The position numbers were made by a program, and so were the translations under genes. This document shows positions 1 to 3,133 of a stretch of 64,000 nt of DNA, in pieces. The notes under the pieces were generated by a model. That model was not told the origin of the DNA. It saw only the letters and a list, made by a program, of their open reading frames with translations, and searched no databases. The stretch comes from Deltaproteobacteria bacterium. GTDB taxonomy: Bacteria > Desulfobacterota > Binatia > HRBIN30 > JACQVA1. Positions within the stretch are counted from its first letter, which is position 1. Each line of letters starts with the position of its first letter. The stretch covers positions 642,951 to 706,950 of the forward strand of contig JACOST010000028.1 of the NCBI GenBank assembly GCA_016178705.1. Reading direction: 5' to 3'.

Positions 1-107
1 GTCAAGCCACCGCTGAATTCGGTCGAACTCGACGAACCGCCACCGCAGCCGGCCAAACCGGCTACCGCGGCGATACTGATGAGCACGAATCGGAACCCCA
101 ACCGCAT
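1..107 (-). CDS. Putative lipoprotein, N-terminal part only (runs off the window)
   Basis: Reading the minus strand from an ATG at 105-107 gives a typical lipoprotein leader: a short basic start (MRLGFRF), a hydrophobic stretch (VLISIAAVAGLAG), then Cys in the lipobox context LAGC, followed by a Gly/Ser-rich linker. A purine-rich AAAGGTGG lies about 7 bases upstream and supports this start. Only 35 codons are inside the window, so the mature protein is unknown. It is probably exported and lipid-anchored. It diverges from yqgE across the palindromic array at 191-1874. The leader is clear; whether a full gene follows cannot be judged here. Confidence 0.6.
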   Translation of the reverse strand, partial: MRLGFRFVLISIAAVAGLAGCGGGSSSSTEFSGGL

Positions 108-190
108 GCAACGGCCACCTTTCGGATCGCTGATAGTGACGGGCGCTAGTGTCCGTGCTTTCGGGTTCGATTGTCAAGCGAAGAAACTGT

Positions 191-720
191 CATCGGATGC
201 GGGGCTACGCCCCTGCGCCCCTACGAGGAGAAAACCGAGCGCGGTTTTCTCCTCGTGCTCCTCTTTCGCGCGGAGCGCCGGGCAAATGCCTGTCCTGAGT
301 AGCGAAGCGTATCGAAGGGGGTCGCGGCAGTGTGAGTCGGCCTCGCGCCGTGCCTTCGCCCAGCTCGATCGCCGCGTTTCCGCCCATGATGCGCGTTGCG
401 CCGCGACCGGCGGCCTCTGGCGCGACAGTTGGCTGATCGCGTTGGGGTTGTCGCGAGCGCTCGCATCGGATTGCCCGGCGCAGAGAGGAGGCAAGTCTTG
501 ATCGGCGATAACGATGGCGATCGCGTCATCCACAACAGAGGCCGCCGTCGCCCGCCCGCAGCGCAGCATGGTATCGCAGCTCGGTCGACGAAGGCGCGCT
601 TTCCGCGTGAGGCCGGCTCACAATGCCGTGGCCCATTGCGGAGCGCAGCGAAAGCGAAAGGGAGCGCGAGGGAAAACCGCGCCTCGGTTTTCCCTCGCTG
701 GGTGCAGGGCGCAGCCCGCC
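191..720. repeat. Near-palindromic composite element, copy 1
   Basis: The left arm (191-347 plus flank) and right arm (607-720) are diverged inverted copies of one sequence. Each arm carries a 13-14 bp perfect hairpin with the core GAAAACCG/CGGTTTTC (left at about 225-254, right at about 666-698). Each also has a GGGGC-TAC-GCCCC type mini-hairpin at the outer end and a GTGAG/CTCAC mini-hairpin inside. The centre (about 425-515) is not palindromic and contains GGATTGCCCGGCGC followed by a purine-rich AGAGGAGG. The same layout recurs twice more downstream. No transposase lies in the element. It looks like a MITE-like or BIME-like mobile palindrome, or a template for a structured RNA. Confidence 0.75.
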
Positions 721-792
721 AGCGACCACCGCATCGAGTACGTGCATCGCGCGGTCGCTGGTTCAGGCGGTTGCGGCTACGCCCAAAGCGGT

Positions 793-1291
793 CATCGGAT
801 GCGGGGCTTCGCCCCTGCGCCCCTACGAGGAGAAAACCGAGCGCGGTTTTCTCCTCGTGCTCCTCTTTCCCGCGGAGCGCCGGGCAAATGCGGCGCGGCG
901 TTGTGAGCCGGCCTCGTGCGCTGGCCTCGACAGATTCCACCGCTGCATTCCCGCCAATGATGGGCGTTGCTCTGCGACCGGTGCCTTGGCGAAGGCACCC
1001 ACCGACGGTGATAGCCATTGTCGCGAGCACTCGCCTCGGATTGCCCGGCGCAAGAGAGGAGCTGAGCAATGATGTGCGCCAATGACGGCGATCGCGTTGA
1101 CCCTACAGAGGCCACCGTTGCCTGTTAGCAGCCCATCATTGGTATCGCAGCTCGGTAGCGTTGAGCCCGCCGTCCGCGTGAGGCCGGCTCACAATGCCGC
1201 GGCCCATTGCGGAGCGCAGCGAAAGCGAAAGGGAGCGCGAGGGAAAACCGCGCCTCGGTTTTCCCTCGCTGGGTGCAGGGCGCAGCCCGCC
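793..1291. repeat. Near-palindromic composite element, copy 2
   Basis: Second copy of the element at 191-720. The left arm with its long hairpin lies at 793-917 and the right arm at 1178-1291, with about 260 bases of flank and core between. The 114-base right arm is almost letter-for-letter identical to that of copy 1, while the central part has diverged more. The core again has GGATTGCCCGGCGC followed by AGAGAGGAG. Open frames crossing this copy are translations of the repeat, not genes. Confidence 0.75.
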
Positions 1292-1360
1292 AGCAACGAT
1301 CGTCTCGAGTGCGTCGTCGGGGTGCGCCGGTTCACGCAGGGGGCCTACAGCAAACGGGAT

Positions 1361-1874
1361 CATCGGAAGCGGGGCTGCGCCCCTGCGCCCCTACGAGGAG
1401 AAAACCGGGCGCGGTTTTCTCCTCGTGCTCCTCTTTCGCGCGGAGCGCCGGGCAAACGGGGTACAGCGTTGTGAGGCGGCCTCACGCAATGGCTTCGATG
1501 GTTCCATCGTTGTGTTCTCCTCGACGATGGGCATTGCGTTGCAACCGGCGGCCTCTGGCGGACTTCCGACTGACAGCGCTGAGGTTGTTGCAAACATCGC
1601 TGTCGGATTGCCCGGCGCAAGAGATGACCGGAGACGCAAGAGATGACCGGAGAAAGGAGGCGACCATGACCGATTGCATCACCCACCCCCGAGGCCGCCG
1701 TTGCCGCCCAGCAGCGCCGCATTGGTATCGCAGCGCGGTCGCGCTGCGTGCGCGTCCCGCGTGAGGCCGGCTCACAATGCCGCGGCCCATAGCGGAGCGC
1801 AGCGAGAGCGAAAGGGAGCGCGAGGGAAAACCGCGCCTCGGTTTTCCCTCGCTGGGTGCAGGGCGCAGCCCGCC
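1361..1874. repeat. Near-palindromic composite element, copy 3
   Basis: Third copy of the same element. The left arm is at 1361-1486 and the right arm at 1761-1874. The long hairpins are intact (about 1395-1424 and 1820-1852). The core contains a short internal duplication of AAGAGATGACCGGAGA around 1620-1655 that the other two copies lack. The copy ends about 60 bases before yqgE, so its right-arm hairpin would sit in the 5' region of any transcript reading into yqgE. Confidence 0.75.
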
Positions 1875-1935
1875 ACGGACGCACAGGAGCAACGATCGTG
1901 AAGGGATATGGAAATCTCCTCTGCGGCGCCTTATC

Positions 1936-2511
1936 ATGCACCTCATGAGCGATCTGGATGGACCCACCAACTCGCTGGCACCGACACTGTTGCTGTCGAT
2001 GCCACAACTCAACGACCCGAACTTCAAGCGCAGCGTGGTGCTGCTGTGCGAGCACACGCCCGAGGGCGCGTTCGGGTTGGTGCTCAACCGCCCCACCGGC
2101 ACGCCGGCGGCGCAGTTGATCGAGCTGGAGCCGCCGCTCGCGCACGACAACGGCCTGCAGTTGTGGGTCGGCGGTCCGGTGGAACCGCAGCGCGGCTGGA
2201 TTCTGGTTGGCGATGAGCCGACCGGCGTCGAGTACGTCGGCATCTTGAGTGGCTTGTATCTGTCGGGTTCGCCCACACTGTTGCGGCGACTGATTGAAGG
2301 CCCGCCGCCGTCGCGCAGTCGTTTCCTGATTGGCTACGCTGGTTGGGGGCCGGGCCAACTCGACGGGGAGTTGCTGCAGTCGGCATGGCTCACCAGCGAC
2401 GTCGCGCTCGACCTCATCTTCGACGTCGACGCCGACGCAATGTGGGAAGCGGCGATCCGCCGCCTCGGCGTCGATCCAAACGCGTTGCAGATGAGTCCCG
2501 GCATACACTGA
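1936..2511 (+). CDS. yqgE: YqgE/AlgH family protein (UPF0301)
   Basis: A 191-residue cytoplasmic protein of the UPF0301 family, close to the usual length of about 185-190. The family pattern is clear: an early LAPTLLLSMP, then GAFGLVLNRP, WVGGPV and GYAGWGPGQL. The family fold is known but its biochemical role is not settled; AlgH has been linked to alginate regulation in Pseudomonas. I chose the ATG at 1936; a second ATG at 1945 is equally possible, and the longer open frame back to 1777 only reads through the repeat. A GNAT acetyltransferase starts 25 bases downstream and may be co-transcribed. Confidence 0.9.
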   Translation: MHLMSDLDGPTNSLAPTLLLSMPQLNDPNFKRSVVLLCEHTPEGAFGLVLNRPTGTPAAQLIELEPPLAHDNGLQLWVGGPVEPQRGWILVGDEPTGVEYVGILSGLYLSGSPTLLRRLIEGPPPSRSRFLIGYAGWGPGQLDGELLQSAWLTSDVALDLIFDVDADAMWEAAIRRLGVDPNALQMSPGIH

Positions 2512-2536
2512 ACGATCTCGACGCGCGGATCAGTCG

Positions 2537-3133
2537 ATGGAGATCAGTCCGGTCACGCTCAACGGCCGCGTCGTGCGGTTAGAACCGCTCACGCCGGCTC
2601 ATGGCGAAGCGTTCGCGACCCTCGGCGTCGAGGGCGACATCTTTCGGTACTTTCCGATTGCATTGAAAACGCGGGACGAGCTGTTGCGCTACGTAGAGTT
2701 CAGCGTCGGGGCGCAGGCTGCCGGCCTGGGTGTATCGTGGGCGACGGTCGCGCTCGCATCCGGCGACGTGATCGGCGGCACCAGCTTCCTCAACATTGAC
2801 CCGCAGAACCGGCGGTTAGAGATCGGCGGCACCTGGATCGCGCCGGCGTGGCAAGGCAGCGCGTGCAATGCCGAGGCGAAATATCTCCAACTCCGCCACG
2901 CGTTCGAGGAACTCGGCTGCATTCGGGTCGAATTCAAGACCGACTCGCGCAATGAACGCTCGCGCGCCGCGCTGCGCCGCATCGGCGCCACCGAAGAAGG
3001 CACGCTACGCAATCACATGATCATGCCCGACGGCCACCTGCGGCACAGCGTCTACTTCAGCATCATCGACTCCGAGTGGCCGCAGGTGAAGGCGAACTTG
3101 GAGACACGCATCGAGCGGTTGTTGAGTCGGTGA
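2537..3133 (+). CDS. GNAT family N-acetyltransferase (RimJ/RimL-like)
   Basis: A 198-residue acetyl-CoA-dependent acetyltransferase. The start (VTLNGRVVRLEPLTPAH) is the first strand and helix typical of RimJ/RimL-type Acetyltransf_3 proteins. The middle has the family's IGGTW.IAPAWQGS region, equivalent to the RSYWGKG segment that precedes the acetyl-CoA loop. The C-terminal half has the characteristic T.S.NERSRAALRRIGATEEG motif. The substrate (ribosomal N-terminus, small amine or antibiotic) cannot be read from sequence. It follows yqgE on the same strand and converges with the amidohydrolase at 3146-4768. Confidence 0.88.
   Translation: MEISPVTLNGRVVRLEPLTPAHGEAFATLGVEGDIFRYFPIALKTRDELLRYVEFSVGAQAAGLGVSWATVALASGDVIGGTSFLNIDPQNRRLEIGGTWIAPAWQGSACNAEAKYLQLRHAFEELGCIRVEFKTDSRNERSRAALRRIGATEEGTLRNHMIMPDGHLRHSVYFSIIDSEWPQVKANLETRIERLLSR

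Follow-up and report, generated by a model that had tools for sequence, protein, structure and literature searches.

A non-coding palindromic repeat family, probably spread as DNA, in tandem arrays beside algH and elsewhere in a Binatia genome

The stretch of DNA that we analyzed, 64,000 nucleotides long and hereafter called the window, comes from a 6.1-Mb assembly of 33 contigs (G000). At 642-646 kb of contig C28, three foldback elements (U1, U2, and U3) form an array bounded by a minus-strand lipoprotein-like gene, whose start lies near window position 107, and by the plus-strand gene algH (Table 1). The original prediction had placed three near-palindromic units, with no transposase within, between two divergent genes. 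The two flanking genes indeed diverge, genome-wide blastn returned the predicted unit boundaries exactly, and none of the six open reading frames tested inside the array matched a Pfam family.

All three units share one anatomy. Long inverted arms enclose a fast-evolving core, with a small hairpin (hp1) and a strong one (hp2) on the left and a strong hairpin (hp3) on the right, where some copies of the element have a small one too. Each window unit contains hp1, hp2, and hp3, and the 13-14-bp stems foreseen for the units were recovered as a 14-bp stem in hp2 and a 13-14-bp stem in hp3, with a hairpin core of GAAAACC..GGTTTTC. As predicted, U1-U3 resemble one another more closely in their arms than in their cores (96-100% versus 58-64% identity): the hp1/hp2 arm reached 96.9%, the right arm 97.8% and 95.7%, and hp3 100%, whereas the inner left arm stood at 76.7% and two core segments at 63.5% and 58.1%. 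The core of U3 also holds a perfect 19-bp tandem duplication (window 1616-1653). Fold tests of U2 gave z-scores of -10.60 as RNA and -10.71 as DNA, with none of 100 shuffles as stable in either test. When the array was compared with itself, a single 1135-bp alignment spanned unit, spacer, and unit, the spacers being homologous. Because this alignment is continuous through the spacer, the duplicated unit includes it; the predicted length of about 500 bp is that of the element itself, whereas the repeat period is about 570-600 bp.

Table 1. Features of the array and its right flank, in window coordinates.
Feature	Position	Strand	Remarks	Method
U1, full foldback element	191..720	+		blastn against own genome, repeat finding
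U2, full foldback element	793..1291	+		blastn, fold test, alignment
U3, full foldback element	1361..1874	+		blastn against own genome
hp1 of U1	199..216	+	small outer hairpin; mirror partner near 705-718	
hp2 of U1	224..255	+	14-bp stem; equivalents 826-857 (U2), 1394-1425 (U3)	
hp3 of U1	666..698	+	13-14-bp stem; equivalents 1237-1269 (U2), 1820-1852 (U3)	
Foreign small palindromic repeat	289..320	-	inside U1 left arm	alignment
U1-U2 spacer	721..792	+	within tandemly duplicated period	continuous alignment through spacers
U2-U3 spacer	1292..1360	+		continuous alignment through spacers
algH promoter-like site	1909..1937	+	TGGAAA-17-TATCAT; outside element, downstream of array	
algH (DUF179)	1945..2511	+	right flank of array	

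A genome-wide count of copies had been proposed together with the original prediction. Using unit 1 and the two arms as queries, our search of the G000 assembly located about 14 full or partial copies at nine loci. Eight are full units (U1, U2, U3, C11a, C28b, C28c2, C11b, and C15) and six are partial (C32a, C32b, C21a, C21b, C28c1, and C14), and four loci (the window, C32, C21, and C28c) contain more than one unit or unit part. Homology between the loci ends at the element edges, with no sequence in common directly outside the elements. The flanking genes are divergent at five of the nine loci (the window, C11a, C32, C14, and C28b), co-directional and aligned with the element at C11b and C15, and directed against it at C21 and C28c; convergent flanking genes were found at none of the nine. 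Right of the C32 array lies a gene for a 1238-residue protein (L018 12-3728), of which the 576 residues tested matched no Pfam family.

A smaller palindromic repeat of about 31 bp (31-32 bp in U1), with the core TACGCTTCGCTACTCAGGGCAGG, is inserted in U1's left arm; in C28b and C15 the alignment places it at the mirrored site of the right arm. Its entry at mirror positions of opposite arms looks as if it had targeted one spot of the folded structure. Occurrences of the small repeat were noted at window 289-320, in the right arms at L021 and L024, and at L009.

We searched 148 genomes of the class, G000 included, with covariance models of the left arm (R1) and the right arm (R2), each built from nine copies. 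Either model matched two of the 148 genomes, one of them being G000 each time; together the matches comprise G000, G008, and G014, giving relatives in two of the 147 other genomes. The G014 relative is an array of tandem copies whose hairpins follow the same order, located between rhodanese-like and SDR-like genes (named by eye from their translation). A 14-bp hairpin pattern occurred in five of 145 genomes of the class (G000, G008, G014, G030, and G037) and a 13-bp pattern in two of 145 (G000 and G003), while the reversed control pattern matched one of 145 genomes in each search; the matches in G030, G037, and G003 were taken as chance. In a genome contig database, from which records of the own genome may have been left out, a combined hp1 and hp2 pattern had five matches in unrelated organisms. 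The 14-bp pattern was also found in 37 stretches of viral contigs, which a rough estimate puts at chance level, and unit 2 had no match among plasmids and phages. A candidate right-arm remnant at L009 of G001, where R2 scored an E value of 0.015 with the small repeat included, was dropped, since its alignment score without the common small repeat was reached by 151 of 1000 shuffles.

Each of the two G008 copies is enclosed in an IS1182-like shell. The shells occupy L068 1908-3172, which has lost about 1.19 kb of the transposase middle, and about 2796-3896 of L069; an intact IS1182-like element is present in G000 on contig C9 near 32 kb (L084), with an NCBIfam IS1182 score of 268.8 bits against a cut-off of 270. 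Compared with that intact element, the G008 copy on contig C375 keeps the first 297 and the last 317 bp, and the hairpin element stands in place of about 1190 bp of transposase gene. Given that the two G008 copies have a common left junction and are 83% identical, they probably go back to one founding event, after which the shell was duplicated or transposed. Little of the long foldback survives in the G008 copy (z -2.52). Contigs C9 and C11 begin with further copies of the left end of the IS1182-like element (L086 and L087), so this element probably causes assembly breaks.

The shells raise the question of whether the hairpin element has any mobility of its own or just travels with IS1182-like insertion sequences, as a mobile insertion cassette. 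In favour of the latter are the two G008 copies enclosed in such shells with a shared left junction and the intact insertion sequence in G000. However, insertion sequence DNA or an IS end motif was found near none of the nine G000 element loci, and G014 yielded no match to the IS protein query; we therefore regard a purely passenger existence as unlikely.

One of the possibilities raised by the original prediction was that the array is a source of structured RNA, and covariance analysis had been proposed as a check. In an alignment of the eight full copies, 93.2% of the cells over 69 named pairs were paired. Measured against 500 shuffles and slid controls, all of which ignore the kinship of the eight copies, both sides had changed in 11 pairs (shuffle mean 6.1; reached by 5 of 500) and in 19 cells (shuffle mean 7.1; reached by 0 of 500), compared with 1-4 pairs and 1-5 cells in slid versions of the pairing. 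The refuting conditions set with the original prediction fail on both counts: the copies are not unique to this locus, and they do vary in ways consistent with pairing. By contrast, further standard pair types numbered 21 against a shuffle mean of 21.5 (353 of 500 shuffles reached this count); this count was not above the shuffles, which argues against reading the covariation simply as strong.

The kinds of pairs involved bear on the level at which pairing is maintained. In hp2 and hp3, 222 of 224 cells were Watson-Crick and none was G-U, with compensatory changes in 7 of 28 pairs; mismatches in the long arms comprised 18 G-U and 25 A-C (the small inserted repeat being excluded from three copies). 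A selected RNA is expected to favour G-U on its own strand. Since G-U is not in excess, we read the pairing as DNA-level, and the complete Watson-Crick swaps, the lack of G-U intermediates in the strong hairpins, and the lack of strand bias in the arms argue for upkeep of the stems at that level. The pattern fits DNA-level correction or copying and not selected RNA. Template switching is described as a process that keeps such pairing at the DNA level (PMC8794818). Selection on a DNA hairpin could also produce this pairing, and our data cannot tell the two apart.

A structured RNA family, or a long leader RNA regulating its neighbours (many of which, at these nine loci, act in acyl-CoA metabolism), would account for the strong fold, for covariation above the controls, and for the position of all nine loci upstream of at least one gene. 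The element is like large structured bacterial RNAs in its size and its stable, covarying fold; unlike them, it has no RNA-strand signature, G-U being neither in excess of A-C in the arms nor present in the strong stems, and in an Rfam scan of window 1-2600 at a relaxed threshold no family reached its gathering score. The only hit, CcsR1, scored 23.8 bits where the gathering score is 65.3 and was rejected. At the four loci where orientation could be judged, the element runs with the genes at two and against them at two, and this lack of preference gives no support for a leader RNA. Moreover, the promoter-like site of algH lies downstream of the array (TATCAT precedes algH in G001 too), and the element is absent upstream of algH in five relatives, where R1 had no match and the best R2 match had an E value of 0.11. 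An RNA function is thus improbable, and the predicted source of structured RNA was not borne out.

In kind, the family is most similar to the PATEs of Haloquadratum walsbyi. These elements are described as non-coding, with palindromes near both ends and no target duplication seen, and as having divergent copies and core deletions and being targeted by smaller mobile repeats (PMC3119063). Near-terminal palindromes, a lack of coding capacity, divergent copies, core deletions, and invasion by a smaller repeat were found here as well. Target-site duplications, for which the original prediction had proposed to look, were not seen by eye in the flanks of these copies, which are old and have uncertain ends. 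Unlike in PATEs, the arms here are long mutual inverted repeats and copies stand in tandem arrays. PATE palindromes are reported to match IS605-type transposons (PMC3119063), whereas no match was found at the six Y1 loci of G000.

Those six Y1_Tnp genes bear on the idea of a PATE- or REP-like element moved in single-stranded form by a Y1 (HUH) transposase that recognizes the terminal hairpins. Hairpins near the ends, the lack of an open reading frame and of a visible target duplication, and invasion by a smaller repeat would all suit it, as in the PATEs described (PMC3119063). However, blastn of three copies against 4-9 kb around each Y1 locus found no element sequence, R1 had no match there and R2 only a single weak one (17.6 bits, E 0.13, in L136), and GTAG at the stem foot is not conserved among the copies. 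We consider transposition by one of these enzymes rather unlikely, and the RAYT link proposed as a check did not emerge, no element lying near any of the six genes.

REPs, REPINs, BIMEs, and RAYT "TIRtrons" are similar to the family in their inverted hairpin pairs, tandem grouping, and intergenic location. REPs are described as 20-40 bp long with a GTAG or CGTC tag (PMC3733652), unlike the roughly 500-bp units found here in about 14 copies, with variable stem feet, no conserved tag, and no RAYT association. The predicted BIME-like character therefore holds as an analogy, and fails on unit size, on the missing conserved GTAG, and on the lack of elements near the Y1 genes. MITEs and mobile insertion cassettes are likewise short and non-coding with inverted ends, and the G008 copies lie within IS ends without an intact transposase; a difference is that no cognate transposon sharing the ends was found, and by eye no target duplication was visible in these old copies with uncertain ends. 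In the G000 assembly, all strong arm matches fell in the nine ORF-less loci, and none belonged to an autonomous transposon with the element's ends. A literature search of narrow scope for similar tandem foldback repeats found no paper, which is no proof of novelty.

The family's arrays appear to mark sites of past chromosome rearrangement. G001 represents another genus of the same family. There algH and a DUF4380 gene stand side by side in divergent orientation, with about 130 bp between them (the comparison with G001 stands under the label REARRANGEMENT), and the locus is element-free, with neither R1 nor R2 matching. In G000 the two genes are apart: algH is the right-hand neighbour of the window array, and the DUF4380 orthologue adjoins the left side of the C32 array, on a different contig; between the two genomes, DUF4380 is 67% identical (313 residues) and algH 68%, and the same amidohydrolase gene follows beyond algH in both. 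The C32 partial copy matches the left half of U2 at 93.6% over 312 bp, compared with 79.9% for its next best match in the window. The simplest account, suggestive as it is, would be insertion between the two genes, growth of the array, and exchange with another array. The adjacency of algH and DUF4380 was seen in one genome only, G001, which is also the sole empty site and comes from a different genus; the DUF4380 gene was not found at the four other algH loci examined (G005, G007, G009, and G012). C11a, whose ChsH2 and acyl-CoA dehydrogenase genes are separated in all five relatives in which both could be found, was considered as a further breakpoint and was not counted because gene order is too fluid at the order level.

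An assembly join between similar arrays would also part algH from DUF4380, and mis-assembly is thus a conceivable cause of the split. Repeats of this type can mislead assemblers, and the C32 array, at 250-254 kb of its contig, has a contig end about 3 kb away. That the tandem array or its flanks are themselves an artefact is nevertheless very improbable: the window units differ from one another by about 22% and therefore are not duplicates of one read, the window array is located inside an 850-kb contig, and arrays recur at other loci and in G014.

Taken together, our findings are best explained, with a probability of roughly 60%, by a lineage-restricted, non-autonomous, non-coding palindromic repeat family that has spread through the genome as DNA. 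Among the three options of the original prediction, a mobile element family is best supported, by the nine loci, the element edges, the relatives, and the element-free site in G001. The element is probably parasitic or passive DNA and not functional RNA; the family is ordinary in kind and distinct in anatomy, and its link to chromosome rearrangement is suggestive. The element (about 500 bp plus a 70-bp spacer) would spread through the genome as DNA, perhaps by a transposase acting in trans or as a passenger of insertion sequences, as suggested by the two G008 copies inside IS1182-like shells; neither a transposase nor an autonomous relative with the same ends was found. Arrays would grow by tandem duplication, spacer included, and their stems would be kept perfect mainly at the DNA level by template switching or arm-to-arm correction during replication. 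Arrays may also recombine with each other, and one such exchange may have parted algH in the window from its divergent neighbour DUF4380 at C32.

More broadly, and only tentatively, double-hairpin foldback arrays might be recurrent exchange points, at which palindrome-driven breakage and homologous exchange between dispersed arrays would reshuffle divergent gene pairs, with template switching during replication preserving perfect hairpins in the absence of any selection on an RNA. Covariation is often taken as proof of functional RNA. The approximately 14 paralogous copies in this one genome contain compensatory pairs without G-U intermediates or strand bias, and template switching, as described (PMC8794818), thereby becomes a testable alternative to functional RNA. 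A split of algH and DUF4380 exactly at two related arrays would show such repeats reshaping the gene order of a lineage.
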